NCBI GenBank assembly: GCA_020055645.1
Contig: CM034546.1
Coordinates: 76,880,001 to 76,944,000 of the forward strand
Direction of reading: 5' to 3'
Origin: Tomocerus qinae
Taxonomy: Eukaryota > Arthropoda > Collembola > Entomobryomorpha > Tomoceridae
DNA: 64,000 nucleotides
Shown one piece after another: positions 10,517 through 48,074 of the stretch. Numbering within the stretch: position 1 is the stretch's first letter; every line of letters begins with the position of its first letter. The notes under the pieces are model-generated. The model was given only the letters and a program-made list of their open reading frames with translations. It was not told where the DNA came from and searched no databases. The translations under genes were made by a program, and so were the position numbers.

Positions 10517-10520
10517 TTTG

Positions 10521-22172: not shown

Positions 22173-24140
22173 ATGGAAAAACTTTTGGTAATTCATAAAC
22201 TTATACCCTTCATAAATAATTATTCAAAAGACACTCTTGACAGCTAAAATTATTAATATGATTAGCCTTTAATTACAATTATTATCCTTCTTTCAGGTGA
22301 ATTTGCTTCTGCTATCGGTTGCAGTTGTAGCGACAGCAAGTACAGTAAAACTAAATCCATTGTAGGAAAAAATGAATCTACAACCACGTCGGCTGTTCGA
22401 GAAAAAATGGGTAATTTTTCAGACGAAAATGAACAAAAACAGCGTGAAGTGAGATCTCCGAATAGACATCATAACGACAACCATCACAACAACGACAACC
22501 ACCACGACAACGACAATCGTCGCGATAACGACAACCATCACGACAACGACAATCACCACGATAATTGGCACAACCACCGCGAAGTAAGATCTCCGAATAG
22601 ACATCACAACGACAACGACAACCATCACGACAACGACAACCATCACGATAACGACAACCATCATGATAACGACAACCATCACGATAACGATAATCACCAC
22701 GATAATTGGCACAACCACCGTGAAGTAAGATCTCCGAATAGAAATCACAACGACAACGACAACCATCACGATAACGACAACCATCATGATAACGACAACC
22801 ATCACGATAACGACAATCACCACGATAATTGGCACAACCACCGTGAAGTAAGATCTCCGAATAGACATCAAAACGACAACGACAACCATCACGACAACGA
22901 CAACCATCACGATAACGACAATCACCACGATAATTGGCACAACCACCGTGAAGTAAGATCTCCGAATAGACATCACAACGACAACGACAACCATCACGAC
23001 AACGACAACCATCACGATAACGACAATCACCACGATAATTGGCACAACCACCGTGAAGTAAGATCTCCGAATAGAAATCACAACGACAACCATCACGACA
23101 ACGACAACCATCACGATAACGACAACCATCATGATAATTGGCACAACCACCGTGAAGTAAGATCTCCGAATAGAAATCACAACGACAACGACAACCATCA
23201 CGATAACGACAACCATCATGATAACGACAACCATCACGATAACGACAATCACCACGATAATTGGCACAACCACCGTGAAGTAAGATCTCCGAATAGACAT
23301 CACAACGACAACGACAACCATCACGACAACGACAACCATCACGACAACGACAACCATCACGATAACGACAATCACCACGATAATTGGCACAACCACCGTA
23401 AAATAAGATCTCCGAATAGAAATCACAACGACAACGACAACCATCACGACAACGACAACCATCACGATAACGACAACCATCATGATAATTGGCACAACCA
23501 CCGTGAAGTAAGATCTCCGAATAGAAATCACAACGACAACGACAACCATCACGATAACGACAACCATCACGACAACGACAATCACCACGATAATTGGCAC
23601 AACCACCGCGAAGTAAGATCTCCGAATAGACATCACAACGACAACGACAACCATCACGACAACGACAACCATCACGATAACGACAACCATCATGATAACG
23701 ACAACCATCACGATAACGATAATCACCACGATAATTGGCACGACCACCATGAATTAAGATCTCCGAATAGAAATCACAACGACAACGACAACCATCACGA
23801 TAACGACAACCATCATGATAACGACAACCATCACGATAACGACAATCACCACGATAATTGGCACAACCACCGTGAAGTAAGATCTCCGAATAGACATCAC
23901 AACGACAACGACAACCATCACGACAACGACAATCGTCACGATAACGACAACCATCATGATAACGACAACCATCACGATAACGACAATCACCACGATAATT
24001 GGCACAACCACCGCGAAGTAAGATCTCCGAATAGACATCACAACGACAACGACAACCATCACGACAACGACAACCATCACGACAACGACAACCATCGAGA
24101 CAACGACAACCACGACGGTAATAAGAATTGGAATTGGTAA
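22173..24140 (+). pseudogene. His/Asn/Asp-rich repeat protein, copy A, frameshifted after the signal peptide
   Basis: Exon 1 (22173..22187) encodes MEKLL. The intron is 22188..22296. Exon 2 starts at 22297 and encodes the rest of a signal peptide, but in that frame it meets TAG at 22363. Against copies B and C, this point has a net loss of 16 bases (between CTAAAT and GTAGGAAAA), which throws the signal peptide out of frame with the repeat region. The repeat frame is then open to TAA at 24138. It holds 14 linkers of the REVRSPNR type (variants RKIRSPNR, HELRSPNR), each followed by several DNDNHH hexapeptides and ended by NWHNH. The C-terminus is also shortened: a C-to-T change gives NWNW-stop where B continues HNRK. 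An internal ATG at 22407 would give a leaderless 577-aa protein. Either a pseudogene, a leaderless form, or an assembly error at one point. Confidence 0.6.
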
Positions 24141-26662
24141 AACCACCGGAAATAGAACTTCTAAAGCCAAAATGATAATTTTTTAGCACCTCAATTTTGC
24201 ATTAAATTGTTTTTAGTCTAAAATTTATTCTCGTTTGAACCCTGAAATAAAATATTTAATCACTGTATCCAAGAATGAAAGTGTCTGAAATTATAATTTA
24301 ATTAACCCTGGAATGCCCGCAGTGCTCCATCCATGGATTTTAGGTCTTTGCTCTATCTTAGCTTCGAGTAGATATGCCTTACAACTTCAAGGTTTTTTTT
24401 ATTTGTCATGAATGCGTTTCTCTCTTTATGTAGAAAATTTCATTAAAATCAGTTGTTATTTAAGGCTAAATAACATTAAAAAACTGAAAATTGGGACCAC
24501 TTTTCTACGCTAATGCCCAAGCTGGTCCATCCATGGACAGTGCTGCTGGTGAGACATATTATTTATAGTGAACCCAGCTAAGGAGCAAATCTGGCACTCA
24601 AGAGAAATTCAGCAAGCCACCCATTACAGTAATAAAAACAATTTCGAAAACATCCCATTAGGTTATTATGTTAACTTTTAACTACAAAGTGTATTTAAAT
24701 TAATATACTTTTATTTCCTACAGTTTTTGGGAAAATTAGCTGCAGCTCCAAATTCCTGATAAAAAGTAATTTCCTACACCAAAATAATAACTGTTAGATT
24801 GTAGCATCAAATACAGAGAACAATGAAAGACTCTATTTTCGAAAAAACTCCCACAAAGTTACCAAAAAGCTCCCTTGAAAATCAAAAAAAAATTTTTTAG
24901 ATGCCTTTGTTCCCAGGAAAAGGTTGAACTTTTGCTATGGCATTCGCTAAGGAGCTGTATTATAATTGGAATTGAGGTTTCAACATTCCCCTTTTCATAT
25001 GACAAAATAATATACCATTTTCCGAAACATTTATCACATGAACATAGAAATTGGAATTTATCTCTATAGATTTTATATTTAACCTAAAAAGCATCTATTT
25101 GCTAATTTTGATTGGCAGAAAGGCCTTATTTCGAGGAATTTTGACGCAGAACCCTAGCAACCCCTTTAGCTCCGCCCACAACAGATTCCCGTTCATTAAA
25201 CAAAAGATTCAATGTTAAAGAGAAAGAGTTTATGTACATATTATAATTTGTTGGTGGTGTGGTTAAATGCGGTACCAAGGCTGAAATGTACAGTTCCGCC
25301 ATATGAATTTTGGTTACTTTTTGGACAGAGTCTACATAACCAAATTTATAACAGTAATATGAGTAAAAAGAGCCTAAAATTTGAGATCCTAAGTACAGTA
25401 TTGAATTGAAACGAATCATTATTATTTTAATTAATCAATATAGTCTGGTATTCAATTTTTCAGGGCCGCGTAATCAGAAAACAATATAATGTGTTATAAT
25501 ATGTAAACTAGTAGACTCTATAAAACAACATTATTTTAGAGTTTACCGTAATAATCGATATAATTCCCCGTATCGAAATAATTCCCCGGAAGGGAAACTA
25601 CTATAAAAATATTAATAACCGAGACTGATTACGACTTTAGCGCCAAATTGAGGGGTTACTTTTACGAGTTGTGTACTTCATATTACACATAGCATATTTT
25701 AGTCGTGCTGCATTCGGTATGCAAGTTTGTGTTTACCTTAGGTTATATGAATGCAAGATGTACAGCAAAGGCGGAGCTATTATCATATGGGAGTCTCGCT
25801 TTTTAATACTTTTATAGTACACTAGTTGAATCCCAGCACATAAAATGTGCTAGAAAAATGTTGAAATCTGTAAATTTCTAGCGATTGCGCATTGACCCGA
25901 ATTTCATAAACCGTTGATTTTTTACACCAATTTTTGATGCCTAAGTGTTGAAATATAGAACAAACACAGTAGTGATAGTCTGGTCCTTACTCATACTCAT
26001 TAATTACAAAATATTACGGACATAGATACAAACATTTATTCAAGAATAGTGAAAGAATCCCATGCGCATGCCCCACTTTATGTTTATGTAGAGTAAAGAT
26101 TGATTTTCCCCCGCAAATAACAGCCTTTGGAACTATAATTTCCCGTATTGCAATAATTCCCCGGTCAAATCTAAGGGCATTTGGTACGTGCGCACTTACA
26201 GTAAGTTTGTACATGTCTACATGTGTTGACATGTGTACTAAAAGAGAAAGGAAGCAAGAACATTGGCATTGAAAGGTAGAAATTGTTGCAGTCCACAATA
26301 ACTCTGAAAGGGCAGAAGGAAGAGAACAACGCTACGGTTTTATTAGACTCCAAAAAGACCCAGTGCATATGTATTTTGAAATTTAACTTTTAAACTGAAA
26401 GCTTTCAAACTAAGTGAACACATCTCCATTTCCAGCGCCAGTAAACAGTTACAAATTGACCGAAAAAGCCTAACGGAATAGAATAGAAACGGAAAAAATT
26501 TGATTATGAAAGACCATTTGATCACTGCCTTTAAACCAGGCAAAGATTGCAGTGAAGGGTTGGAAAGGTTAAAGCATTTTTACATTTTGCTGCCATCGAA
26601 CGATGATGATATGGATGTACGTATCATGGAACCTATGGGACAGCATTACTTTCCTCTGACGG
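24141..26662. other. 3' flank of copy A and repeat-rich intergenic DNA
   Basis: 24150-24300 matches the 3' flanks of copy B and its fragments (AGCCAAAATGATAATTTTTT, then TTTTTAGTCTAA and an AATAAA at 24246). 24303-24550 has two CTCCATCCATGGA / GTCCATCCATGGACAG blocks. 25562..25589 and 26137..26164 carry the motif AATTCCCCGTATCGAAATAATTCCCC, seen again at 28072. No genuine exon was found. Confidence 0.5.
25340..25473 (+). repeat. Fragment of the His-rich gene 3' duplication
   Basis: Nearly the same as 29681..29800 (and its inverted and tandem copies near 35830-35950 and 37470-37590): AATATGAGTAAAAA, GAATCATTATTATTTTAATT, TATAGTCTGGTATTCAAT, TTTTTCAGGGCCGCG. It sits downstream of copy A as its counterpart sits downstream of copy B, so it is collinear within the segmental duplication. 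Confidence 0.7.
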
Positions 26663-26933
26663 TGTTCGGACACATGTGCCAAAAATAAAAGTGTCAATTG
26701 GCACTTATATCCTACCTCAAAAAACGTATGTGCCATTTCCATAAGTGCCAAAGCATAAAGTGCCATTATTCATAATGTATTGTATAGTGTATTAGGCTAT
26801 CAATTTCACAAAATATAATATGTAGTGTGCATTTAACATTTATGAAGTAGTTTATAAGTAAGGAAGACTGCCTAGAGAATGTAAGAAAAGTAATGACAAC
26901 GGTCATTTTACATAATTATTCGTAGACGCTGAT

Positions 26934-27137
26934 ATGCAGATGAGATTTTTGAGGTTTTGTAGCAATCTCGGAAATAATAATCCTCGTTCTTTCAGCCACT
27001 GCCTACCATTCAGCATGGCACAAGTAGTTGAGAAAAAGCATGTATCTGGATATTCGAACATCAAAAAATGTGTTGTGAGAAACACAAAGTGTTGGAGGTG
27101 CTATGACAGAGCCAAATATAAATGTTGTCGTAGTTAG
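26934..27137 (+). pseudogene. FLYWCH-like zinc-finger remnant
   Basis: 67-codon open stretch ending in GYSNIKKCVVRNTKCWRC then YDRAKYKCC. The spacing of WRC and the following Cys is like the end of a FLYWCH finger (YWRC...C.A), which lets transposases bind DNA. Only part of the domain is left and the frame stops soon after. Interpretation rests mainly on its position just upstream of a transposase fragment. Confidence 0.4.
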
Positions 27138-27300
27138 ATTGAAAATTTGACATCTGGCGAATTTAAATCCGGGAGACAGGAGCCCACCCATCCTCCGTAT
27201 TAACGGATGTCTCTTTCATCTCGGTCAAAATATTTTTCGGCAAATTCAAAAGTCTCCGGAAATACTACAGAAGTACACAACGGATCCAAAATTCTGCTAA

Positions 27301-27801
27301 GCAGCCAGATATTTTCAGGCAATAGCATTTGTCCCACCACAGCATGCTTTACTTTCATTAGATGTTTATCGTCGACAATTTCTAAAATATTATCCTCTGC
27401 TCAATCCATTAGCAGAATATTTTGAAAAGACTTACGTCGGTCGTTACCAAGAACCTCTCTTTCCTCCCGAAGTGTGGTCAGTTTATAAACGCGTACAAGA
27501 AGTAGTTCCAAGGACAACAAATGCTTTAGAAGGGTGGCACAGTGGCTTCAATTACCGGGTGGACAAACCTCATCCTTCAATTTGGATTTTACTTTCTCAT
27601 CGTCAAAATGAGCAATTCCATTGTTCTCTTATGATCCTTTACTTCAATAATGCAATGGCACCATCTCAGAAGAAAGAATATCGGGAACTCGATTCGAAAA
27701 TCACTTTCCAAGTTGCACAATACTTTACAAAACCAAACATTGATTATATCAAAGCTTTTACATATTTCGTAGGCTGGCACAACCAAAAATCCAAACCCTA
27801 A
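27301..27801 (+). pseudogene. MULE transposase C-terminal fragment
   Basis: Open frame from just after a TAA (27298) to the TAA at 27799; about 166 codons with no usable start. Seen: ARYFQAIAFVPPQHALLSLD, YPLLNPLAEYFEKTYVGRYQ and VVPRTTNALEGWHSGFN. Known: the R-T/S-N-N-x-V/L-E-G-W-H motif followed by P..W.. is the conserved tail of animal MULE transposases that cut and join transposon ends. The catalytic DDE part is absent upstream, where frames are broken. The sequence outside the fragment keeps the inverted ends, consistent with one decayed element. Confidence 0.6.
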
Positions 27802-28486
27802 AATGACATAACTATTCCTATTCATAAGGAAAAACTGATGTATATAACTAAACCATGACTAATTAAAATATTATTGGCATTATTCGTATTGGCACTTATA
27901 AAAGCCCCTTGGCACAAAGGGTCATAAAACACTTGGCATTATTGACCTTTGGCACATAGGTCCGGGAATCCCTCGAAACGACGACGAAAATTAATTACAT
28001 TTCAATAAAACTTTTTCAATTTTTTTAAATAATGCATTAATAATCTAAAAAATATTGACTTTGAAACTATAAATTCCCCGTATCGAAATAATTCTCCATC
28101 CGGGGAACTGCATAGATTTTTCTTGGCCAAAAAATGGCCATGAAACTATAATTCCCCCGAGGTATTAATTCGATTATTAGTACGATAGTTCAAAGGAATG
28201 GATATTTTATTTAATGGAGGTAAACAATATCGTAAAAAATGACAATGCTTACATTAAATATTTTTGATTGGAATGCAAACAATCATGAATACAAAATACA
28301 AATAGATCTTAATGATTTACTGCATGGTTCATTATTCATTATAATAATATTATTGTATTGCATAGCTATTAAACGAATAAAAAAATTCCGTTTGAATTTT
28401 TGAAGACCGAAATTTTATATAAAAGGACATAATATTCTATTAATGCTGTCTCAGTGCAAGGCACACACATCATAGTATAGCGGAAC

Positions 28487-28648
28487 CAGGGTTGTGGGTC
28501 GGGTTTTTTATGGGTTGGGGTTTTTTGGGTTTTTTGGCAAAAAACCCACCCCGCTTTACTTAAAAAACCCCGGGTTTATTGGGTTTTTTGGGTTTTTTAA
28601 AAAACATACAAGAATGTGCACTACAGCTCCATCTAGATACGCAATACA
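28487..28648 (+). mobile_element. Truncated left end of the hAT MITE fused to His-rich repeats
   Basis: Identical to the first 160 or so bases of the MITE at 30123 (CAGGGTTGTGGGTCGGG and the GGGTTTTTT runs) and preceded by the same AGCGGAAC (28479..28486). It breaks off at GATACGCAATAC and continues directly into the His-rich repeat. A TATA box copy lies upstream near 28432. Confidence 0.8.
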
Positions 28649-29059
28649 GACAACCATCACGATAACGACAACCATCACGACAACGACAATCACCGCGATA
28701 ATTGGCACAACCACCGCGAAGTAAGATCTCCAAATAGACATCATTGCGACAACGACAACCATCACGATAACGACAACCATCACGATAACGACAACCATCA
28801 CGACAACGACAATCACCGCGATAATTGGCACAACCACCGTGAAGTAAGATCTCCAAATAAACATCATAGCGACAACGACAACCATTACGACAACGACAAC
28901 CAACACGATAACGACAATCACCACGATAATTGGCACAACCACCGTGAAATAAGATCTCCAAATAAACATCATAACGACAACCATCACGACAACGACAATC
29001 ACCACGACAACGATAACCACAACGGTAATAAGAATTGGAATTGGCACAACCGGAAATAG
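28649..29059 (+). pseudogene. 5'-truncated His-rich repeat fragment (left arm)
   Basis: 137 codons in the DNDNHH frame with three linkers (two REVRSPN, one REIRSPNK), ending NWNWHNRK-stop like copy B. It has no signal peptide, no exon 1 and no ATG: the frame is closed by TAG at 28634 in the fused MITE end. It is the 3' part of copy B or its ancestor. Transcription from the duplicated Kunitz promoter upstream is possible but the repeat frame could not be translated from an ATG. Confidence 0.8.
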
Positions 29060-30051
29060 GACTTCTAAAGCCAAAATGATAATTTTTTAGCATGCCAATT
29101 TGGCATTAAATTGTTTTTAGTCTAATATCATGTATTCTCGTTTGAAATCCTGAAACAAAATATCTAATCACTGTATCCAAGATTGAAATTGTCTAAAATA
29201 TAATATTTATTTAATTAATTCTATAATTAGTTAATTAATTATGATATAAAACTGAAATGCAACCATTTGCGCGCATTACTTTGGTTTCCAAAATGGCCTT
29301 CTCAAAGCATTTTTTGTTCTGTGCAGGAAATAACCTTGATGGATTTTTTGTTTTGTGCACGAAATACTAGTGTTAATGCGTCAATCAAAAAGTGCAGAAA
29401 TGTTTCGTGCACAAAAGAAAAAATTCATTCACGCTATTTCGTACACCAAACAAAAAGTGCATTGAAGCTAAATCGATATAAATAAGAAAGAGTAAATTAA
29501 TAAAAAAGGTAAAAACATTTATAAAAAACTCATCAGGAGACTATGAAATCTAGAAAACAAGAAAAATTAAACCTATGCACAATCAGAATAGAGCGTAATT
29601 AAAAAAACGTACATCGTCTGCTTAATATTAATATTACAACGTAACAAGCCATTTTATCATGGCTGCTACAAAGTAACACACAGTAATATGAGTAAAAAAA
29701 GCCTAAAATTTAAAAAGTACAGTACTGTATTGAATTAAAACGAATCATTATTATTTTAATTATTCAATATAGTCTGGTATTCAATTTTTCAGGGCCGCGT
29801 TGAATGCAAAATCTATAACATTTAGTTCAAAGAATATATATTTTATTTAATTGAGGTAAACAATATCGTAAAAAATGACAATGCTTACATTAAATATTTT
29901 TGATTGGAATGCAAACAATCATGAATACAAAATACAAATAGATCTTAATGATTTACTGCATGGTTCATTATTCATTATAATAATATTATTGTATTGCATA
30001 GCTATTAAACGAATAAAAAAATTCCGTTTGAATTTTTGAAGACCGAAATTT
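29060..30051 (+). repeat. 3' flank of the His-rich fragment, part of the left inverted-repeat arm
   Basis: No gene. Matches 35583-36574 inverted and 37218-38209 inverted. Contains an 80-base block at 29608..29680 (CGTCTGCTTAATATTA, AACGTAACAAGCCATTTTAT) that also forms the ends of the foldback element at 55199-55509. A 72-codon open frame at 29267 is present in all copies but has no recognisable features. Confidence 0.6.
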
Positions 30052-30060
30052 TATATAAAA
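30052..30060 (+). promoter_or_regulatory. TATA box of the Kunitz gene, left copy
   Basis: TATATAAAA. The expected transcription start is near 30085-30090, so the hAT MITE that begins at 30123 lies in the 5' leader, between start site and ATG (30984). The same box recurs at about 28432 (plus), 35574 (minus) and 37208 (minus) because of the duplications. Confidence 0.55.
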
Positions 30061-30122
30061 GGACATAATATTCTATTAATGCTGTCTCAGTGCAAGGCAC
30101 ACACATCATAGTATAGCGGAAC

Positions 30123-30896
30123 CAGGGTTGTGGGTCGGGTTTTTTATGGGTTGGGGTTTTTTGGGTTTTTTGGCAAAAAACCCACCCCGCTATACTTAAA
30201 AACCCCGGGTTTATTGGGTTTTTTGGGTTTTTTACAAAACATACAAGAATGTGCACTACAGCTCCATCTAGATACGCAATACATACTAATTTCTATTCAA
30301 AAATGTAAACAAATGCATAATCAGGTGGAAACAAATACAGCTTCTACACTTCTACGCGTAATTAATGTATCGTAATGTGAGGACTATAATAATATTAGTT
30401 TTATGTATACTTTAGTCATTGCATTGTGAAGATTATGTTTATAATATTGTTGTACACATATGCTCAATTTCATTTTATCAATTACATATTCATTGCTGTA
30501 ATGCTTTGCAATTAAAGCTTCAAATTAACGAAGGAATAATTTCATAAAGTCAATATAATCAGTAACATATTATAATGCTTAATATTTCACTAGTTGTCAT
30601 CAAACAGTAATAATAATATAGGTGTTCACAAAAATACTGCATTTGCTACGTTACAACATAATAAAATTAAACTTTTATGCTTTAATTTTCTTTTCATTGA
30701 CATAAGTAATAGTAGCTGACACGGTTGTTGTTGTTGTCAGCTGTAGTTTTCATATATGGTATAGTATAGGCTTGTATTTATACCTATAGTTATATAAAAA
30801 ACCCTTAAACCCAAAAAACCCAAAAAACCCTAAAAAACCCAAAAAACCCGGGGTCGAGGGTTTTTTCCTAAAAAACCCGGGTTTTTCGATACCTTG
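30123..30896 (+). mobile_element. hAT-type MITE in the Kunitz gene leader (left arm)
   Basis: 774 bp, flanked by a perfect 8-bp duplication AGCGGAAC (30115..30122, 30897..30904), the hallmark of hAT transposition. Ends CAGGGTTG... and ...ACCTTG. Both ends are built of GGGTTTTTT / AAAAAACCC runs in inverted orientation. No transposase. The G-runs could form G-quadruplexes on one strand. The mirror copy is 34738..35512. Confidence 0.85.
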
Positions 30897-30983
30897 AGCG
30901 GAACTAATAAATAGGTAGAAAGCAAAGTTCATTAGCAAAAATTAACTTTCTTATTTTTTGTGAGAGACAAACATCCAAACAAG

Positions 30984-31792
30984 ATGAAATACGTTATTTT
31001 ATTGGTCCTTCTGTACATCATTTGTGATGATGTCACAAGAACAAACGCTGATGATGTTGAGACCTGTACTCCCAGTCAGTGCAATATTATTTTATAAATT
31101 GTGAATATTGTATGCATTTAATTTATAACAGTATGAATTAAAGTAAATCAATGCATTTTTTCAGCATGTTTTATAAAGGCAGTGATGACGGACGCAGCAT
31201 TGTGCGAAAAAAAGGAAAAAAATAAAAGATCGTTATCGTTTTATTATGAAACCAAGACAGGCAAATGCGTTTCTTCTTATTTCCTAAAGGATTATGGACA
31301 GTATTTTGAAACTGAAAAGGAGTGCAGCGAAAAATGTCAAAGTTGTCAAAAACTTTTGAAAAATATAACGCTGATGGTAAGTGGAAGATTAGATTGACCA
31401 CATCACAAGGCTCTTATACAAAAATATACCTATATACAAAATTTTACAAACCCTACTTTTCCTAAATGTAAAATTTAATAGTTGAAATATTTTTTACATA
31501 TGTTTGACGAATGAACTTTTATTTGATATTTTATATATGCTTCCTATATTATTATCATTTGATTTATTGTTATACAGACGAGTGTCTCAAAACCCTCGGA
31601 ATGCAAGGCACTTTAAAGAAGACAGAAGAGGTGGTTAGCCCGTCAAATGTTTGGACCTTTGACACTAATTCTGGAAAATGCAAGAGTATCATTAGTAACT
31701 TCCATAAATTTGAAAAAGGTTGGTCCATAGCTACTGGGATTGCATTACCTACTGAAGAGGAATGTAATAAACGTTGCCCAACAATTCAATGA
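30984..31792 (+). pseudogene. Two-domain Kunitz-type protein, left copy, broken
   Basis: Exons 30984..31074, 31165..31376 and 31578..31792, same structure as the minus-strand copy at 33840-34650. Exon 1 encodes a signal peptide (YVILLVLLYIICDDVTR). Two defects are visible. A five-A run at about 31359 has lost one A relative to the other copy, so exon 2 joins exon 3 out of frame. And the fourth Cys of Kunitz domain 1 is Phe (SSYFLKDYG against SSYCLKDYG), which would remove one of the three disulfides. It is therefore probably a pseudogene, though the single-base loss could be a sequencing error. The 5' leader carries a 774-bp hAT MITE. Confidence 0.75.
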
Positions 31793-31959
31793 TAATGACA
31801 GATGCCTAATGACGACAGATGACAAATAAACCCTTACTGCCAAGATTTAACCTTATACAGCAAAAATAGCCACTGATTAAAATATAATATAAATTTTTAT
31901 CAGGACGCGATTATATTTTATTGTTAATATTAATTAACTGCTATATTTACATGATTTTG

Positions 31960-32346
31960 TATTCGGCTTTCCCAGTAAGTCCAACATTAAAGAATTGTAT
32001 CGAAACAATCCTCGTAACCTCGGCTACAAATTCTTGCATTCAGTTCAGCAATGTCTTGAGGTCTGGTTTCGTAAATGAGTGACTTGAGATGGCCCCAAAT
32101 GAAAACTATCAAAATTGTCATCTTTATCCAGCCATTGAAAATTAACATTTTCAATGAATGGATTTCCATTGCTGAACTGAATGCGAGAATTTGTATCCGG
32201 GGTTACGAGGATTGTTTCGATACAATTCTTTAATGTTGGACTTACTGGCAAAGCCGAATAGAGGAGGTAGTAACATAGAGAAGTTATAAAATTTATGAAA
32301 TTAAAATACATGAAAAATCCCATACTGTCTTAACTGACTAACCCTG
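31960..32346 (+). mobile_element. Foldback/MITE-like element at the inner edge of the inverted repeat
   Basis: Arms 31960..32053 and 32167..32260 are inverted copies (GTCCAACATTAAAGAATTGT against its complement) with a loop of about 113 bases. Beyond the right arm the sequence continues to ACCCTG at 32346. A relative lies at 42974..43230, in opposite orientation, starting CAGGGTTAGTCA. The large inverted repeat's left arm stops exactly where this element begins (ATTCG at 31961-31965). Confidence 0.6.
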
Positions 32347-33666: not shown

Positions 33667-33839
33667 CGAATACAAAATCATGTAAATATAGCAGTTAATT
33701 AATATTAACAATAAAATATAATCGCGTCCTGATAAAAATTTATATTATATTTTAATCAGTGGCTATTTTTGCTGTATAAGGTTAAATCTTGGCAGTAAGG
33801 GTTTATTTGTCATCTGTCGTCATTAGGCATCTGTCATTA

Positions 33840-34650
33840 TCATTGAATTGTTGGGCAACGTTTATTACATTCCTCTTCAGTAGGTAATGCAATCCCAGTA
33901 GCTATGGACCAACCTTTTTCAAATTTATGGAAGTTACTAATGATACTCTTGCATTTTCCAGAATTAGTGTCAAAGGTCCAAACATTTGACGGGCTAACCA
34001 CCTCTTCTGTCTTCTTTAAAGTGCCTTGCATTCCGAGGGTTTTGAGACACTCGTCTGTATAACAATAAATCAAATGATAATAATATAGGAAGCATATATA
34101 AAATATCAAATAAAAGTTCATTCGTCAAACATATGTAAAAAATATTTCAACTATTAAATTTTACATTTAGGAAAAGTAGGGTTTGTAAAATTTTGTATAT
34201 AGGTATATTTTTGTATAAGAGCCTTGTGATGTGGTCAATCTAATCTTCCACTTACCATCAGCGTTATATTTTTTCAAAAGTTTTTGACAACTTTGACATT
34301 TTTCGCTGCACTCCTTTTCAGTTTCAAAATACTGTCCATAATCCTTTAGGCAATAAGAAGAAACGCATTTGCCTGTCTTGGTTTCATAATAAAACGATAA
34401 CGATCTTTTATTTTTTTCCTTTTTTTCGCACAATGCTGCGTCCGTCATCACTGCCTTTATAAAACATGCTGAAAAAAATGCATTGATTTACTTTAATTCA
34501 TACTGTTATAAATTAAATGCATACAATATTCACAATTTATAAAATAATATTGCACTGACTGGGAGTACAGGTCTCAACATCATCAGCGTTTGTTCTTGTG
34601 ACATCATCACAAATGATGTACAGAAGGACCAATAAAATAACGTATTTCAT
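33840..34650 (-). CDS. Secreted two-domain Kunitz-type protein, intact copy, 3 exons, 172 aa
   Basis: Exons 34650..34560, 34468..34256 and 34054..33840, all GT-AG, phases 1 and 1, one frame to the stop. Seen: a signal peptide of about 20 residues. Domain 1 (exon 2) has six Cys in Kunitz order, with SFYYETKTGKC, SSYCLKDYGQYFET and KECSEKC. Domain 2 (exon 3) has WTFDTNSGKC and TEEECNKRC but lacks the second and fourth Cys, so it keeps two disulfides at most. Known: Kunitz domains inhibit serine proteases through a loop after the second Cys. Here the spacing from Cys1 to Cys2 (11) and Cys2 to Cys3 (20) is longer than usual, so inhibitor activity is uncertain. Secreted; the 5' leader contains a hAT MITE (34738..35512). 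The broken twin is at 30984. Confidence 0.8.
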
Positions 34651-34737
34651 CTTGTTTGGATGTTTGTCTCTCACAAAAAATAAGAAAGTTAATTTTTGCT
34701 AATGAACTTTGCTTTCTACCTATTTATTAGTTCCGCT

Positions 34738-35512
34738 CAAGGTATCGAAAAACCCGGGTTTTTTAGGAAAAAACCCTCGACCCCGGGTTTTTTGGGTTTT
34801 TTAGGGTTTTTTGGGTTTTTTGGGTTTAAGGGTTTTTTATATAACTATAGGTATAAATACAAGCCTATACTATACCATATATGAAAACTACAGCTGACAA
34901 CAACAACAACCGTGTCAGCTACTATTACTTATGTCAATGAAAAGAAAATTAAAGCATAAAAGTTTAATTTTATTATGTTGTAACGTAGCAAATGCAGTAT
35001 TTTTGTGAACACCTATATTATTATTACTGTTTGATGACAACTAGTGAAATATTAAGCATTATAATATGTTACTGATTATATTGACTTTATGAAATTATTC
35101 CTTCGTTAATTTGAAGCTTTAATTGCAAAGCATTACAGCAATGAATATGTAATTGATAAAATGAAATTGAGCATATGTGTACAACAATATTATAAACATA
35201 ATCTTCACAATGCAATGACTAAAGTATACATAAAACTAATATTATTATAGTCCTCACATTACGATACATTAATTACGCGTAGAAGTGTAGAAGCTGTATT
35301 TGTTTCCACCTGATTATGCATTTGTTTACATTTTTGAATAGAAATTAGTATGTATTGCGTATCTAGATGGAGCTGTAGTGCACATTCTTGTATGTTTTGT
35401 AAAAAACCCAAAAAACCCAATAAACCCGGGGTTTTTTAAGTAAAGCGGGGTGGGTTTTTTGCCAAAAAACCCAAAAAACCCCAACCCATAAAAAACCCGA
35501 CCCACAACCCTG
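34738..35512 (-). mobile_element. hAT-type MITE in the Kunitz gene leader (right arm)
   Basis: Mirror copy of 30123..30896, flanked by GTTCCGCT (34730..34737 and 35513..35520), the complement of the 8-bp duplication. Near its outer end it reads like the truncated copy at 28487 (TTTTTTAAGTAAAGCGGGG) rather than the full left copy, a sign of sequence exchange between copies. Confidence 0.85.
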
Positions 35513-36574
35513 GTTCCGCTATACTATGATGTGTGTGCCTTGCACTGAGACAGCATTAATAGAATATTATGTCCTTTTATATAAAATTTCGGTCTTCAAA
35601 AATTCAAACGGAATTTTTTTATTCGTTTAATAGCTATGCAATACAATAATATTATTATAATGAATAATGAACCATGCAGTAAATCATTAAGATCTATTTG
35701 TATTTTGTATTCATGATTGTTTGCATTCCAATCAAAAATATTTAATGTAAGCATTGTCATTTTTTACGATATTGTTTACCTCAATTAAATAAAATATATA
35801 TTCTTTGAACTAAATGTTATAGATTTTGCATTCAACGCGGCCCTGAAAAATTGAATACCAGACTATATTGAATAATTAAAATAATAATGATTCGTTTTAA
35901 TTCAATACAGTACTGTACTTTTAAATTTTAGGCTTTTTTACTCATATTACTGTGTGTTACTTTGTAGCAGCCATGATAAAATGGCTTGTTACGTTGTAAT
36001 ATTAATATTAAGCAGACGATGTACGTTTTTTTAATTACGCTCTATTCTGATTGTGCATAGGTTTAATTTTTTCTTGTTTTCTAGATTTCATAGTCTCCTG
36101 ATGAGTTTTTTATAAATGTTTTTACCTTTTTTATTAATTTACTCTTTCTTATTTATATCGATTTAGCTTCAATGCACTTTTTGTTTGGTGTACGAAATAG
36201 CGTGAATGAATTTTTTCTTTTGTGCACGAAACATTTCTGCACTTTTTGATTGACGCATTAACACTAGTATTTCGTGCACAAAACAAAAAATCCATCAAGG
36301 TTATTTCCTGCACAGAACAAAAAATGCTTTGAGAAGGCCATTTTGGAAACCAAAGTAATGCGCGCAAATGGTTGCATTTCAGTTTTATATCATAATTAAT
36401 TAACTAATTATAGAATTAATTAAATAAATATTATATTTTAGACAATTTCAATCTTGGATACAGTGATTAGATATTTTGTTTCAGGATTTCAAACGAGAAT
36501 ACATGATATTAGACTAAAAACAATTTAATGCCAAATTGGCATGCTAAAAAATTATCATTTTGGCTTTAGAAGTC

Positions 36575-36985
36575 CTATTTCCGGTTGTGCCAATTCCAAT
36601 TCTTATTACCGTTGTGGTTATCGTTGTCGTGGTGATTGTCGTTGTCGTGATGGTTGTCGTTATGATGTTTATTTGGAGATCTTATTTCACGGTGGTTGTG
36701 CCAATTATCGTGGTGATTGTCGTTATCGTGTTGGTTGTCGTTGTCGTAATGGTTGTCGTTGTCGCTATGATGTTTATTTGGAGATCTTACTTCACGGTGG
36801 TTGTGCCAATTATCGCGGTGATTGTCGTTGTCGTGATGGTTGTCGTTATCGTGATGGTTGTCGTTATCGTGATGGTTGTCGTTGTCGCAATGATGTCTAT
36901 TTGGAGATCTTACTTCGCGGTGGTTGTGCCAATTATCGCGGTGATTGTCGTTGTCGTGATGGTTGTCGTTATCGTGATGGTTGTC
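36575..36985 (-). pseudogene. 5'-truncated His-rich repeat fragment (right arm)
   Basis: Mirror of 28649..29059 and identical by eye. It contains the last three linkers of the gene and the intact C-terminus but no start, intron or signal peptide. Created by the tandem duplication whose joint is immediately outside. Confidence 0.8.
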
Positions 36986-37147
36986 TGTATTGCGTATCTA
37001 GATGGAGCTGTAGTGCACATTCTTGTATGTTTTTTAAAAAACCCAAAAAACCCAATAAACCCGGGGTTTTTTAAGTAAAGCGGGGTGGGTTTTTTGCCAA
37101 AAAACCCAAAAAACCCCAACCCATAAAAAACCCGACCCACAACCCTG
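36986..37147 (-). mobile_element. Truncated hAT MITE end (right arm)
   Basis: Mirror of 28487..28648; ends at ...AACCCTG followed by GTTCCGCT. Joined at 36986 to the His-rich fragment. Confidence 0.75.
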
Positions 37148-38209
37148 GTTCCGCTATACTATGATGTGTGTGCCTTGCACTGAGACAGCATTAATAGAAT
37201 ATTATGTCCTTTTATATAAAATTTCGGTCTTCAAAAATTCAAACGGAATTTTTTTATTCGTTTAATAGCTATGCAATACAATAATATTATTATAATGAAT
37301 AATGAACCATGCAGTAAATCATTAAGATCTATTTGTATTTTGTATTCATGATTGTTTGCATTCCAATCAAAAATATTTAATGTAAGCATTGTCATTTTTT
37401 ACGATATTGTTTACCTCAATTAAATAAAATATATATTCTTTGAACTAAATGTTATAGATTTTGCATTCAACGCGGCCCTGAAAAATTGAATACCAGACTA
37501 TATTGAATAATTAAAATAATAATGATTCGTTTTAATTCAATACAGTACTGTACTTTTAAATTTTAGGCTTTTTTTACTCATATTACTGTGTGTTACTTTG
37601 TAGCAGCCATGATAAAATGGCTTGTTACGTTGTAATATTAATATTAAGCAGACGATGTACGTTTTTTTAATTACGCTCTATTCTGATTGTGCATAGGTTT
37701 AATTTTTCTTGTTTTCTAGATTTCATAGTCTCCTGATGAGTTTTTTATAAATGTTTTTACCTTTTTTATTAATTTACTCTTTCTTATTTATATCGATTTA
37801 GCTTCAATGCACTTTTTGTTTGGTGTACGAAATAGCGTGAATGAATTTTTTCTTTTGTGCACGAAACATTTCTGCACTTTTTGATTGACGCATTAACACT
37901 AGTATTTCGTGCACAAAACAAAAAATCCATCAAGGTTATTTCCTGCACAGAACAAAAAATGCTTTGAGAAGGCCATTTTGGAAACCAAAGTAATGCGCGC
38001 AAATGGTTGCATTTCAGTTTTATATCATAATTAATTAACTAATTATAGAATTAATTAAATAAATATTATATTTTAGACAATTTCAATCTTGGATACAGTG
38101 ATTAGATATTTTGTTTCAGGATTTCAAACGAGAATACATGATATTAGACTAAAAACAATTTAATGCCAAATTGGCATGCTAAAAAATTATCATTTTGGCT
38201 TTAGAAGTC

Positions 38210-39029
38210 CTATTTCCGGTTGTGCCAATTCCAATTCTTATTACCGTTGTGGTTATCGTTGTCGTGGTGATTGTCGTTGTCGTGATGGTTGTCGTTATGA
38301 TGTTTATTTGGAGATCTTATTTCACGGTGGTTGTGCCAATTATCGTGGTGATTGTCGTTATCGTGTTGGTTGTCGTTGTCGCTATGATGTTTATTTGGAG
38401 ATCTTACTTCACGGTGGTTGTGCCAATTATCGCGGTGATTGTCGTTGTCGTGATGGTTGTCGTTATCGTAATGGTTGTCGTTATCGTGATGGTTGTCGTT
38501 GTCGCAATGATGTCTATTTGGAGATCTTACTTCGCGGTGGTTGTGCCAATTATCGCGGTGATTGTCGTTGTCGTGATGGTTGTCGTTATCGTGATGGTTG
38601 TCGTTGTCGGTATGATGTCTATTTGGAGATCTTACTTCACGGTGGTTGTGCCAATTATCGTGGTGATTTTCTTTGTCGTGATGGTTGTCGTTATCGTGAT
38701 GGTTGTCATTGTCGTTATGATGTCTATTCGGAGATCTCACTTCACGGTGTTTTTGTTCATTTTCTTGAGTAAAATTTCCCATTTTTTCTCCAATAGCCGA
38801 CGTGGTTGTTGATTCATTTTTTCCTACGGCGGACGCCACATCGAGAATATTTAGTTTTAATGTACTTGCTGTCGCTACAACTGCAACCGATAGCAGAAGC
38901 AAATTGACCTTAAAGAAGGATAATAATTGTAATTAAAGGCCAATCGTATTAATAATTTGATCTGTCAAGAGTGTCTTGTGAATTATTTATGAAAGTTATA
39001 ATTTTATGAATTACCAAAAGTTTTTCCAT
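38210..39029 (-). CDS. Secreted His/Asn/Asp-rich repeat protein, copy B, 2 exons, 237 aa
   Basis: Exon 1 39029..39015 encodes MEKLL. The intron is 39014..38909. Exon 2 38908..38210 is in frame to the stop. Seen: a signal peptide (MEKLLVNLLLLSVAVVATAS), then a Ser/Thr/Asn-rich propeptide-like stretch of about 45 residues. Five blocks follow, each opening with REVRSPNR or REIRSPNK, followed by HH(N/T/C/S)DNDNHHDN-type hexapeptides and closed by NWHNH; the end is NKNWNWHNRK. R-E-V-R-S fits the minimal furin site RxxR. Two His per six residues, beside Asp and Asn, suggests binding of Zn, Cu or Ni ions. Function not known; family not recognised. C/T variation between units falls at third codon positions and is silent in this frame. 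TATA box at 39150..39158. Confidence 0.75.
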
Positions 39030-40140: not shown

Positions 40141-40187
40141 ATTTCTCAACGTCTAAACGAAGCACTCTAACTATAGTCTGCGACAAC

Positions 40188-40990: not shown

Positions 40991-41035
40991 GCGACAACCA
41001 TATATGCGAATAATTAGCACTCTGTTCTCGGGATA

Positions 41036-41398
41036 CCACTAAGTTCCAATACACGTTTGTCGTCTAATAACTCAAAAACCTACACCTTTAATAATAGCGT
41101 GATATGGGGGTAAGATGGTTGAAAATCGCTTTATCGAAATTCCCGGTAGTTTTTACACATTAAATACTCTTTACAACTTACAAAAGTTTATTAATGTCTG
41201 GTATGTTTTCCCTATGGTTTCCCATGTATAAATTAAATTTTAGTTCATCATTATTTTTTGACTTTACTTTCAAATAATTATTTGTTATATACCAATCTTT
41301 AAGTTAATTCAGCCTCTTTCCAATGGTAGTACACCTATTTTTCTATCTGCTCTAGTTTTTGAGTTATTAGCCGACAAACATGTATTGGAACTTAGTGG
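41036..41398 (+). mobile_element. Tc1/mariner-type MITE, 363 bp
   Basis: Inverted ends of about 45 bases (CCACTAAGTTCCAATACACG ... matching complement ending CTTAGTGG), flanked by TA dinucleotides (41034..41035, 41399..41400), as expected for Tc1/mariner insertion. Non-coding interior. Confidence 0.75.
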
Positions 41399-42973
41399 TA
41401 ACTCTGTACATGCAGAATTTTCAAATAATTTTCAGAATCAAAAAATAGGAAATCGAAGCCAGAGGGGATGAAAGTTTAGGTCATTAGCAGCGTTTATAAT
41501 GATCGGTGGAAAATTGTAGGAGGAGATAGTGAACATAATTTCCAAAACTCCCCAACTCTTTGCATGTGAAAATCTGACTTTCAAAAAATCATAAAAAAAT
41601 TTCTATGAAATTAAACGTTATGAAAATGATAATTTAGGGTTCTGACTATGAAATGCACATCCAGTAATAATTTCAAAGCTTATTATTTACTTTAGAGTAT
41701 TTAAAAAAAACTGGTTTCTATTCGAATTATTTGTGAATATCGGCTAGCACCTGTGATACTTACTGAGTTTTTAATCAGGCACTTTTGGATCCTCAATCAG
41801 TGCGTGGGAAAAACTGAACCTGAAGTACAAATTAAGAAACAATTTTGACAATTTACCACTAATGAAAATAATGAATTAGGTGCCAATGAGAACTAACTTA
41901 CCTATATAAAAGTCATTGAGGCTATTGAGAAATTTGAGAAGAATCTACAATATTTAGAATGAGCCTCGTGTCAAAATATAATAATATACGTAAAATACGT
42001 AAACGATTTAGGGAAATTTATTCAATTACTTATCCGTCCATTACAATGAATTATCTCCAGCCAAAAAATGTCAATCTAAATTTCAATGGACATCAACTAT
42101 GTTTAAGTATTTTCCAGAATGTAGACAATTATATTTATTCCAGTGCTTTGCTTAAAATAAAAGCAAATCCCTTGCGATAGCTTATTACAGCGAGATTTCC
42201 AACTTTCTATGAAGGTATCGGAGTTTTCGAAAAGCAAACGGATATTTACAGAAAAGCTATTTCTGCGTCTCCCATTATGAAGTGCAGGCATGAGAATGTA
42301 AAATGGCACTTTGATCACAATATACAGTAAAGCCTCAATGATGCAAAATTAGTGACAATCACAAGTGCGTGATGTGAATATTCCTAAGATAAGATAAGAC
42401 CGGCAGGAACAGAAAATGTATTGAAATAACTTGTTATGTTAATACACATTTGTTTTCTATAAAAAATTCTAGCTTTAAATTCAAAACGACGAAATTGAAT
42501 TTTTGATGCAACAATTTTGTCACGGTAAGCAAGGATTTTGAGCCAGGCCAATGTTCCACTCAAATAGAAAACAAAAATATAAACACAATGTAAAAGGTGA
42601 AGGGAAATGTGTAAAGCTAGGAACGGTGCAAAGAATAAGCAATACAATCGGTATTTTATTTTAATCGGCTTCTTTACATTTTAGCCAGCCGGTCGGTCAT
42701 TTTATCCGGTTAAATTGGCTGATGGCTAAAATGTCTATATCTCAATTTACATTGGTTTTAATTTTATTGTAATGATGTAGAAAATACCAAATTATAAATT
42801 GCTTGCATTTTGCATATAGGATTCAGCTCCAAGCAAACATTCAGCAAGATACCCAATAAAAAACTGTTCCCATTAATGTCGGACTTAGTGCCTTTAGCAC
42901 AACCACTATATCATTTTTTTATTCCATGGTCGTCAATTTTCTGGCTCTCTGTAAATGAAAAAATACAATAGTA
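41399..42973. other. Intergenic, nothing recognised
   Basis: A 73-codon open frame from an ATG at 41959 has no signal peptide or known motif and is not supported as a gene. The rest is AT-rich with no repeat structure. Confidence 0.45.
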
Positions 42974-43230
42974 CAGGGTTAGTCATTTAGGACACTATGG
43001 GATTTTTACACGTACTTTAATTACATAAATAATACAAATGCTCTAATCCTACTGCTCTGCTATGAAAGACGAACGTTAAAGAGTAGCATGGTAACATCAG
43101 GGTAATTCTCGCGGCGACAATTCTTGCCTTCAGTTCACCAATGTTTTGGGGTCTGGTTTCCTAAATGAATTCAGATGACCTCAAAGGAAAAATGCCACTT
43201 GCCAAAAATTGTTATCCTTTACCATCATCA
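42974..43230 (+). repeat. Relative of the foldback element at 31960-32346
   Basis: Begins CAGGGTTAGTCATTTAGGAC and shares blocks TTCTTGC.TTCAGTTCA.CAATG and GGTCTGGTTTC.TAAATGA with the element at 31960-32346 (there inverted at the CAGGGTTAGTCA end). No target duplication resolved. Confidence 0.55.
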
Positions 43231-43289
43231 GGTCTGTTGTATAGCTATACTTTCTAAATCAGAACACTTTGATTAAAAACGCAATGCTC

Positions 43290-44025
43290 CCATTATAAAT
43301 TCCTCTTTTATGTAGGCAATAATCATTCTCGGTATTTTTATATTTTATTATCAGTCTCATACTCATAACTTAACCTCAGTTTACAGTGGGATGCATTATG
43401 CATTGGACATTTGCTACCGTGCCTTGCTCATCTCTATATACTTAATAATACGTTCGGGATAGATAGATCGCTATCTGTGAGTGAGTACAGAAAGAGTTAA
43501 TGTGGTTTTACATTATCTCTTACTGACGTCAGAGAATGGCTTCATATAAACAGATAATCACTCGTTGCATTTCTATTGACGTCATAAATAGATTTCACGA
43601 CAAGACTATTTATTGTCTTTAATTACGTATAGTAGAAGACAAGGAAGAAGCTATTTTCCGAAAGTAAACTACTATTAAACATTATGTGATTATGTGTATG
43701 CAAAGGAAATGTAATTAATTTTACTTGGGCAGATAACCGGTCGTCCATTCATAAGTATTTTCTATGAAGTTCAAATATTGTAATCAATGGAATTCCCAAG
43801 ATAATATTTTCATTCTAGATTTCTTGTGAATGGACAACAAGGAGTAAAAGATAATTACAGCTAAGCTGTTACGGGATGCATTAATGTGGTTATTAGTAAT
43901 TGTGTATACATGAGGACAAAATATTTTATTTTTTATAGTACAGTATATTACTCTTTATATACCTATACTATTTACATATCATAGTCTATTAGTAACCATG
44001 AGTACTTCAGTTCAGTATGAATTTT
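43290..44025 (+). repeat. Dispersed duplication, copy 2 (matches 20010-20625)
   Basis: Same orientation and order as 20010..20625, with an additional stretch of about 70 bases near 43915-43995. Non-coding. Confidence 0.7.
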
Positions 44026-45801
44026 CAGAACTATACAAACTATTAACAAAGAATTTTATTAATGTGCATCCAATGTTAATGTTAAGTGAAAGCGTTTTAT
44101 TCGGATAGGTTTGTATAACTATTAATAATTTTAATAGGATTTTTAAGCATACCTTTATTAATAATTCAGAGGAGCTTTGAAGGAGTCTTAGTTGACCAAG
44201 TGAATGTCAACGTATCTCAGACGAATCTACTCTACGTCTACACTGCCTACGCTACGGCATTCAAAATTCTACCTTACGGATTCCACTTTCAAAATTCAAC
44301 AAATTGTTGCAAATTGTATAGGGTACTGGAAACGATTGCACTATAGTTATCATTTTTATTTGTCACTTTTGCTTTTCTTTTTACAAAGTGAAAAGTAAAA
44401 TCATTGCACCAAAATTTTGGCTTCACTAATTGCATTCTGCCATCAAAATGTAAAAAAGTCACACTTGTTAATTGTGCCTTGTTTCTTAGTCACACTTTAC
44501 TTGACTTCGAAGTTCATTCCATTGACTTTAACATATTTAATCTTCTGATTCCGTAGCTAACTCAATAAAAACCGCACCTTTAAAACATCCCATATTGTTC
44601 AATGTTCCTGTACTATTATCATACTTGACAAGCCTCTAGACACATGCGATAAGAATGCAAAATTGTTCAACCAATTCAACCTGTTCTTTTCTAATTTTTT
44701 CCATTCTATTCTGATTATGTTTATGAAAATGTTGCCCCATGTTTACAAAGTTGCATTTCTCACATTATCTAACAAAGGTTTATGAAAGTGTTAGTGAGAG
44801 TTTGCGATAATCTTCGTGCGGTTTACGAAAATGTCGTTAATGAATTCTCCGAAAGCCGAAAAAAATGCTGGGCATCTCAGCAATTGTGTTTTGGAAATAC
44901 AAACTGGACTAAGCTAAAGAAAAGCTAATCTAATCACAATAGGAAATTATAGTTATTAAGGCTTCTATATCAGGAAATATCCAAAATAGATGCACACCAC
45001 GGAGCTCTTGAATCGTGCATAATCAGAAAAATGATTCCAGGATTTTGATAAGTCGTAAAAATATAACCAAACTTCCATAAAAAAGACAAAAGAAAATGAG
45101 GGCGACCATGAGGCGCCTTTTTGAATTTGTGTCGGCAAACGTTAACAAAAATTCAAGATAATATATTTCTTACATGTATTTCTCTACTCCAAATCTAAAT
45201 TTTCAAATAGAATTTTCGATGACTTAAACATGGTATTTGATAATTGGGCTTTAATTCTCGTCTTTAGAATCTTTGTAGATTCTGAAACTGGAAACCACAT
45301 TACATTACGTTCAGCCAATTTCTCTTTAGCAATATTCGATGCAAGTCGCCACACCTCCTTAACACCTACAGCATTTATTATTGGTATCGTTTAATAAATT
45401 CATGAATAATGATAGCTGCATTATCCAAAATTCCATTATACAGCCTAATAACAATTTGGTTTTGATAACATTTAATAAGTATAAGAGTGCGCGATAACAT
45501 GGTATCTCAAATTGACCTCAAATAACGACTAAAATAATAAAATATTTACTGTAGAAAACACATTGGTTATCAATACTACCACTGTGGTTTCAAAATTTCA
45601 GTTTACAGATATCTGGTTCTTGTACATGTGCACGGGGGCTCCATTATAGACAAAACCACAAACCCATTCTTCAATCTTAGATAGTGCAATTACTTATTTT
45701 ATTTCAGGATTTTTAAATAGCATACACGATTAGATACCTAAAAACAATTTAATGAAAAGTTGACAAACAAAATATATATTATTGTTTTGGCTTTGGGAAT
45801 C
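44026..45801. other. Intergenic; 3' flank of His-rich gene C at the right end
   Basis: Nothing recognised over most of it. 45700-45800 resembles the 3' flank of copies A and B (GGATTTTTAAATAG, TAAAAACAATTTAATG), consistent with C being a full gene duplicate. Confidence 0.5.
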
Positions 45802-48074
45802 CTATTTACGGTGGTTGTGCCAATTCCAATTATCGTGGTGGTTGTCGTTATCGTGGTGGTTGTCGTTGTCGTGATGATTGTCGTTGTCGTTGTAGTGTCT
45901 ATTGGGAGACCTTACTTCACGGTGGTTGTGCCAATTATAATTATCGTGGTGGTTGTCGTTGTCGTGATGGTTGTCGTTATCGTGGTGGTTGTCATTGTCG
46001 TGATGATTGTCGTTGTCGTGTCTATTGGGAGACCTTACTTCATGGTGGTTGTGCCAATTATAATTATCGTGGTGGTTGTCGTTGTCGTGGTGGTTGTCGT
46101 TGTCGTGATGATTGTCGTTGTCGTGTCTATTGGGAGACCTTACTTCACGGTGGTTGTGCCAATTATAATTATCGTGGTGGTTGTCGTTGTCGTGATGATT
46201 GTCGTTGTCGTGTCTATTGGGAGACCTTACTTCACGGTGGTTGTGCCAATTCCAATTATCGTGGTGGTTATCGTTATCGTGATGGTTGTCGTTATCGTGG
46301 TGGTTGTCGTTGTCGTTGTCGTGATGATTGTCGTTGTCGTGTCTATTGGGAGACCTTACTTCACGGTGGTTATGCCAATTCCAATTATCGTGGTGGTTGT
46401 CGTTGTCGTGATGGTTGTCGTTATCGTGGTGGTTTTCGTTGTCGTGATGATTGTCGTTGTCGTGTCTATTGGGAGACCTTACTTCACGGTGGTTATGCCA
46501 ATTCCAATTATCGTGGTGGTTGTCGTTGTCGTGATGGTTGTCGTTATCGTGGTGGTTGTCGTTGTCGTGATGATTGTCGTTGTCGTGTCTATTGGGAGAC
46601 CTTACTTCACGGTGGTTGTGCCAATTCCAATTATCGTGGTGGTTGTCGTTGTCGTGATGGTTGTCGTTATCGTGGTGGTTGTCGTTGTCGTGATGATTGT
46701 CGTTGTCGTGTCTATTGGGAGACCTTACTTCACGGTGGTTGTGCCAATTCCAATTATCGTGGTGGTTGTCGTTGTCGTGATGGTTGTCGTTGTCGTGATG
46801 ATTGTCGTTGTCGTGTCTATTGGGAGACCTTACTTCACGGTGGTTGTGCCAATTATAATTATCGTGGTGGTTGTCGTTGTCGTGATGGTTGTCGTTATCG
46901 TGGTGGTTGTCGTTGTCGTGATGATTGTCGTTGTCGTGTCTATTGGGAGACCTTACTTCACGGTGGTTGTGCCAATTATAATTATCGTGGTGGTTGTCGT
47001 TGTCGTGATGGTTGTCGTTATCGTGGTGGTTGTCGTTGTCGTGATGATTGTCGTTGTCGTGTCTATTGGGAGACCTTACTTCACGGTGGTTGTGCCAATT
47101 CCAATTATCGTGGTGGTTGTCGTTGTCGTGATGGTTGTCGTTATCGTGGTGGTTGTCGTTGTCGTGATGATTGTCGTTGTCGTGTTTATTGGGAGACCTT
47201 ACTTCACGGTGGTTGTGCCAATTCCAATTATCGTGGTGGTTGTCGTTGCCGTGATGGTTGTCGTTGTCGTGATGATTGTCGTTGTCGTGTCTATTGGGAG
47301 ACCTTACTTCACGGTGGTTGTGCCAATTCCAATTATCGTGGTGGTTGTCGTTGTCGTGATGGTTGTCGTTGTCGTGATGATTGTCGTTGTCGTGTCTATT
47401 GGGAGACCTTACTTCACGGTGGTTGTGCCAATTATAATTATCGTGGTGGTTGTCGTTGTCGTGATGGTTGTCGTTATCGTGGTGGTTGTCGTTGTCGTGA
47501 TGATTGTCGTTGTCGTGTCTATTGGGAGACCTTGCTTCACGGTGGTTGTGCCAATTATAATTATCGTGGTGGTTGTCGTTGTCGTGATGGTTGTCGTTAT
47601 CGTGGTGGTTGTCGTTGTCGTGATGATTGTCGTTGTCGTGTCTATTGGGAGACCTTACTTCACGGTGGTTGTGCCAATTATAATTATCGTGGTGGTTGTC
47701 GTTGTCGTTATGGTTGTTGTTATCGTGGTGGTTGTCGTTGTCGTGATGGTTGTCGTTGTCGTGATAGTTGTCGTTATGGTGTCTATTGGGAGACCTTACC
47801 TCTCTGTGTTCAATTTCCTGAGTAAAAATTCCAATTTTTTCTCCATCAACCAACGTGTTTGTTGATTCAATTTTTTCTTCCGCGGACGCCAGATCGAACG
47901 TAGTATTTAGTTTTGATGTATTTGCTGTTGCTAAAACTGTAATAACTAGCAAAAGCAAATTTACCTGGAAGAAATATAATAATTGTAATGTAAATCCCAA
48001 TCGTGTTAATAATTTTAATTGTCGTAATTGTAATCATATTGTATAGTATTATGAATTACCAAAAGTTTTTCCAT
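45802..48074 (-). CDS. Secreted His/Asn/Asp-rich repeat protein, copy C, 2 exons, 725 aa
   Basis: Exon 1 48074..48060 (MEKLL), intron 48059..47965 (95 bases), exon 2 47964..45802; one uninterrupted frame. Seen: a signal peptide (MEKLLVNLLLLVITVLATAN), a propeptide-like region of about 45 residues with KIESTNTLVDGEKIG, then 17 blocks. Each block starts REVRSPNRH (variants REARSPNRH, HEVRSPNRH, REVRSPNKH), runs through two to five DNDNHH hexapeptides and ends WNWHNH or YNWHNH. The end is WNWHNHRK. It is the longest and most regular copy, and the added aromatic W/Y-N-W before each linker sets it apart from A and B. Inferred role: precursor cut at RxxR into about 17 His-rich peptides, or a metal- or surface-binding matrix protein. 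TATATAAAC box at 48193..48201. Other long open frames over the same DNA, on both strands, are by-products of the 18-base repeat. Confidence 0.8.

Follow-up and report, generated by a model that had tools for sequence, protein, structure and literature searches.

A candidate single-locus orphan family of secreted His/Asp-rich repeat proteins in the springtail Tomocerus qinae

Three gene copies (here A, B and C) within a 64,000-nucleotide stretch of Tomocerus qinae DNA (the window) are best explained as a single-locus orphan family encoding secreted, disordered His/Asp-rich repeat proteins, which may act as multivalent metal binders and may be processed at the linker separating their repeats. 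We assign this reading, taken as a whole, a probability of roughly 40%. If it is true, selection in this orphan family acts on the low-complexity His/Asp/Asn repeat itself, and the short units could easily be synthesised to test whether they bind metal, switch with pH and are cut by convertases.

Gene layout and extent of the family

The exon encoding MEKLL (ATGGAAAAACTTTTG), followed by GTAA, occurs at 22173 (+), 39029 (−) and 48074 (−) and at no other site in the window. All three copies share a layout consisting of this 15-nt exon 1, an intron of 95–109 nt (using the ancestral acceptors) and an exon 2 carrying the repeats, with exon 1 and the donor identical across A, B and C. The predicted spliced products of B (39029–38210, −) and C (48074–45802, −) are 237 and 725 amino acids long and follow the same order: a signal-like peptide ending in ATA, a leader of ~40 residues, and units running from RSPN to HNHREV. 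By a crude hydrophobicity and cleavage rule both B and C pass as having a signal peptide; A passes only with an alternative acceptor. The original prediction of three genes with one layout and a signal peptide therefore stands for the common layout and for the secreted-type leaders of B and C, but needs amending for A, which requires a different, A-specific acceptor. A multi-copy family with one gene layout is supported.

Table 1. Positions in the window of the gene copies, fragments and duplication arms
Feature	Position	Strand	Basis
Copy A possible TATA box TATTTAAA (TATATAAA in C)	22044..22051	+	alignment of A, B and C
Copy A exon 1 (MEKLL)	22173..22187	+	identical in A, B and C; donor GTAATT
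Copy A intron with splicing at the A-specific acceptor ATTAG, which restores the repeat frame	22188..22265	+	splice scan; B and C have GG there
Copy A intron with splicing at the ancestral acceptor TTTCAG, where the product stops after 27 residues	22188..22296	+	splicing, splice scan
Copy A open frame, 14 RSPN linkers, 624 aa stop-to-stop	22266..24140	+	ORF list, translation
Inverted duplication arm 1	28186..31965	+	5 mismatches and 7 gaps versus arm 2 over 3780 bases
5'-truncated fragment without exon 1, 3 RSPN, in arm 1	28637..29059	+	ORF list, repeat search
Inverted duplication arm 2	33667..37447	−	repeat search, arm alignment
5'-truncated fragment without exon 1, translation same as arm-1 fragment, in arm 2	36575..36997	−	ORF list, repeat search
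Copy B exon 2, from the remaining signal-like peptide through the leader and 5 RSPN units to the stop	38210..38908	−	translation
Copy B intron, acceptor TTTAAG	38909..39014	−	splice scan and copy alignment
Copy B exon 1 (MEKLL)	39015..39029	−	exon match, splicing
Copy C exon 2, from the remaining signal-like peptide through the leader and 17 RSPN units to the stop	45802..47964	−	translation
Copy C intron, acceptor TTCCAG	47965..48059	−	splice scan and copy alignment
Copy C exon 1 (MEKLL)	48060..48074	−	exon match, splicing

RSPN linkers number 14 in A, 5 in B and 17 in C, and the hexapeptide DNDNHH occurs 48, 8 and 58 times, respectively. RSPN was the search anchor, which makes the P1 Arg invariant by construction; the P4 Arg is present in 13, 5 and 16 linkers, so that 34 of the 36 fit RxxR, the two lacking it being HHELR in A and HHEVR in C. 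These linker counts, the near-universal RxxR and the exceptions HELR and HEVR had all been predicted and are confirmed here, and the coordinates hold as well. In 2000 residue shuffles, the 16 RxxR motifs of C compare with a mean of 3.67 and a maximum of 11, and the 5 of B with a mean of 1.31 and a maximum of 6, so that B alone does not beat every shuffle. Internal units are mostly 29, 35, 41 or 47 residues long (33, 43 and 45 occur once each), and inspection of the units of the translated copies revealed no further degenerate linker hidden inside them.

Upstream of the ATG, the proximal 150 nt are the same in A and B and differ by 11% between A and C; since the A–C difference over 700 nt is equally 11%, this proximal stretch is not marked as extra conserved. 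All three copies carry TATTTAAA or TATATAAA followed ~30 nt further on by TCATTC, a possible TATA box and a possible initiator, respectively. An alternative initiator, CAGT, was dropped because it lies too near the TATA box.

We searched the 334 Mb assembly (115 contigs) for further members, with match counts that are lower bounds. The B protein matched at least 18 places and a C unit at least 42, all within the cluster (E up to 10), and 247 nt around the C start gave three genome matches, namely A, B and C. That the searches matched only this cluster points to a single-locus family in the assembly. Within the cluster lie two truncated fragments that were absent from the earlier three-gene account, one in each arm of an inverted duplication (Table 1) that may be either a recent event or an assembly fault.

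Several other elements were observed in the window. A direct repeat of ~1.6 kb (36986–38602 versus 35351–36985, 98.7% identical) adjoins the inverted arms, and each arm holds a small Cys-rich gene of secreted type (31145–31465; 33830–34660) that is Kunitz-like by eye and whose sole Pfam match, to TCR, is below threshold; the arm-1 copy is frame-shifted by 1-nt indels relative to arm 2. A probable LTR retrotransposon (1110–11942) is bounded by identical 385-bp repeats (1110–1494 and 11558–11942) and contains ORFs at 3291–4643 and 4568–10516 that are gag- and pol-like by eye. Upstream of A are C-type lectin exons, of which 17163–17456 is above the Pfam cutoff and 19671–19943 below it. Towards the far end of the window are an ORF (57230–58714) that matches LRR and F-box-like families below threshold, ORFs resembling a chemosensory receptor at 61765–62172 (7tm_7, sub-threshold, E 0.002), and inverted repeats (54194–54529 versus 54861–55188, 94.6%; 55199–55509 versus itself, 81.7%) that are perhaps small transposons.

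Composition of the units and possible cutting at the linker

His accounts for 19.0% of B and 24.3% of C, and each unit contains Trp/Tyr and His. The mature-chain pI is 5.84 for C and 6.17 for B (5.62–6.82 for single units), the sign of the charge flips between pH 5.5 and 6.5, and at pH 7.4 all 22 tested units of B and C are net negative, unlike classical cationic defence peptides. Taken together, the His and Asp density, the pI and the charge flip suggest metal binding and pH switching on the basis of composition and computed charge. The DNDNHH repeat would crowd His and Asp side chains into an array that binds divalent metals; strongly negative at neutral pH, this array would become positive once the pH falls below about 6. 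The proteins are apparently unfolded: an AlphaFold model of the single B sequence without its signal part has a mean pLDDT of 48.1 and 0 residues at or above 70, although such a model is a poor test of disorder.

The original prediction described REVR as a furin-like site. The RxxR pattern holds in all but two linkers, but the motif is a weak one: the variants REVR, REIR, REAR and RKIR fit only RxxR, not RX(K/R)R, and have V, I or A at P2. For mammalian furin, RxxR is rated tenfold lower than RX(K/R)R in the accessible text of one paper (PMC6223083). No strong RX(K/R)R or dibasic site was found between repeats, and B and C each have a single dibasic pair, the C-terminal RK. In addition, the SPN that would follow the cut varies no more than REVR does, so cleavage alone does not explain the conservation of the linker.

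Two features nonetheless make cutting at REVR plausible. First, the motif marks the leader junction. In the N-terminal part of exon 2 (the remaining signal peptide and the leader) B and C differ with pS 0.230 and pN 0.182, which indicates that constraint starts around the first REVRSPN, and RxxR stands exactly at the junction of this fast-changing leader and the first repeat. Second, the P4 Arg is kept in 34/36 linkers, once with a different codon family, as the first C linker uses AGA versus CGT or CGC in nearly all others. The REVR–SPN linker would then be the boundary at which processing takes off the leader. Cutting between units would probably also occur, perhaps incompletely, to give peptides mostly of 29–47 residues starting with SPN[R/K], but we put forward the release of peptides only tentatively, with the balance leaning somewhat against it. 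The likely use would be to sequester metal, for defence or storage, in a secretion or body fluid.

Alternatively, the product could be an uncut structural or matrix protein whose whole chain condenses by metal or pH in a secretion, cuticle, egg coat or gut lining, with the linker as a spacer or interaction motif. The weakness of RxxR as a furin motif (in the available text of PMC6223083) and the equal invariance of the downstream RSPN are in keeping with this, as are the Trp/Tyr and His in each unit, the strong charge reversal around pH 6 and the wide range of unit numbers (5 to 17), a trait shared with structural repeat proteins. We nevertheless consider it unlikely, though a serious alternative, since RxxR lies where the leader, which changes almost freely, meets the first unit, and a processing site would be expected at such a junction. 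We think it distinctly improbable that the protein is secreted whole into gut or haemolymph for metal storage or detoxification, to serve its owner's metal balance and not defence or structure. The His and Asp density would suit such a role and a multi-unit chain would give high capacity, but among the ORFs examined in a partial annotation no transporter or metal gene was identified alongside, and the proposal draws on composition.

Constraint on the repeat and the state of copy A

The repeats behave as protein, in that neighbouring units differ mainly at silent sites, and they look preserved by selection. When each codon was compared with the codon 18 nt further on in locally similar stretches, pN/pS in the annotated frame was 0.080 for A and 0.071 for C, as against 1.2–8.0 in the two other same-strand frames of A and C and 1.6 to 2.5 in those reverse frames that contain at most one stop. 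The third reverse frame is also low (0.20 in A and 0.12 in C) but contains 65 and 57 stops. Because these counts are of pairs within homogenised arrays, not independent events, consensus linkers were compared separately over 12 codons, with the first linker of every copy excluded. The consensuses differ by silent and replacement changes of 2/0 (A–C), 1/0 (A–B) and 2/0 (B–C). Between A and C the intron differs by 24.5% and the 3' flank by 26.6%, and the 700 nt upstream by only 11%; the absence of replacements in 29 linker sites has P = 0.0003 with the intron as neutral rate and P ~0.03 with the upstream region. With P depending in this way on the neutral rate, protein-level constraint on the linker appears well supported, but not overwhelmingly so. 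The linker Pro codon is CCG in 13/13 internal linkers of A, CCA in 4/4 of B and CCC in 16/16 of C, and such a copy-specific codon for a constant residue indicates that the arrays were homogenised separately.

That the frames are a by-product of repeat expansion, kept open by in-frame slippage and serving no protein function under selection, would fit hexad codons that are seldom one step from a stop, several other open array frames, the frameshifting deletion and early stop in A and the lack of any relatives found, but we judge it very improbable in the face of the frame-specific silent bias in A and C, the 0 replacements between linker consensuses and the identity of exon 1 and donor in three copies.

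Copy A differs from B by a net 16-nt deletion directly after the signal-peptide part, as a result of which splicing at the acceptor position of B and C would give MEKLLVNLLLLSVAVVATASTVKLNPL, with a stop after 27 residues. We set aside the view that A is plainly frame-broken, as the A-specific acceptor at 22265 would restore the repeat frame. A scan of the first 270 nt for introns of at least 40 nt found three GT–AG pairs that reach the A repeats. The AG ending at 22265, 31 nt upstream of the ancestral acceptor, gives a product beginning MEKLLPLITIIILLSGEFASAIGC, which is again signal-like, and it is specific to A because B and C carry GG at the same place. The pyrimidine tract of this new AG is weak. 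Of 20000 trials with random sequence, 2.9% gave an open and signal-like outcome, equal to 13% of those that were open, under a signal rule that is crude, placing the A cut after ...ILLS versus the ASA preferred by eye. The terminus of A, NWNW, falls 4–5 residues short of the B and C ends. Copy A may have been rescued by the new acceptor or may be a pseudogene. If rescued, its signal peptide would have been rebuilt after a frameshift through the single-base gain of a splice acceptor.

A bolder form of the reading that we prefer would have a lineage-restricted precursor release up to 17 near-identical acidic metallopeptides, charge-reversing near pH 6, and would have A survive its frameshift via a new acceptor that rebuilt the signal peptide out of what had been intron, together with frame-shifted exon. 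This combination strikes us as improbable.

Relatives and comparison with known systems

Searches with the B protein (928 candidates) and the C protein (3384 candidates) returned 0 matches at E ≤ 0.001 and E ≤ 10, respectively. A profile built from B and part of C gave one match, P0001 (E 5.3e-4), among 7992 candidates scored; it carries a precomputed Pfam assignment to PF01927 and an Asn/Arg/Tyr-rich stretch, and its likeness was taken as compositional. Absence from the protein collection is weak evidence of novelty because its arthropod share is uncertain. No Pfam family was found for B and no convincing relative in the PDB, and 0 of 16 pattern stretches in viral contigs and 0 of 74 in prokaryote contigs were confirmed. 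The sole paper returned by a full-text search for the motifs has them inside an IUPAC DNA pattern, and a search of titles and visible abstracts gave no description of the DNDNHH/linker repeat. A mosquito saliva catalogue (PMC1790711, in its accessible text) lists His-rich candidate antimicrobial peptides with an HHH motif, not a DNDNHH repeat. The expectation that no described family has this sequence is supported across protein, Pfam, PDB, contig and full-text searches, none of which gave a convincing relative, and an orphan family is the best reading of these sequences.

Plasmodium HRP2 and other His-rich repeat proteins have, as here, short tandem His-rich repeats of secreted type. The HRP2 repeats are Ala/His-based, in contrast to DNDNHH with Trp and an Arg-containing linker.

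Collembolan antimicrobial peptides are likewise short, secreted defence peptides, and five families (diapausin, Alo, diptericin, defensin and cecropin) are listed in the visible text of PMC10051947; these are Cys-rich, helical or Gly-rich, and none is described there as His/Asp/Asn-rich.

Closer in layout are two other systems. Baramicin A, a furin-cut precursor of Drosophila, is, as summarised in the accessible part of PMC9246212, secreted and built of tandem peptide repeats split by putative convertase sites, with duplicated and truncated paralogues, as in the cluster. According to the same text it has IM24, IM10-like (RPXR motif) and IM22 domains, in contrast to the one low-complexity His/Asp/Asn unit here; RPXR is absent from the B and C proteins, and IM24 and IM22 are set apart by description. 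The sea urchin SpTransformer (Sp185/333) genes, as far as the available text of PMC5491942 describes them, are small two-exon genes in a tight cluster, with the leader in exon 1 and the repeats in exon 2, and encode a disordered protein with a His-rich region, again as here. Their His-rich part is preceded by a Gly-rich region and an RGD motif, both absent from B and C by inspection, in a comparison based on description. The checkable defining features of Baramicin and SpTransformer differ from those of the cluster, which resembles both in layout.
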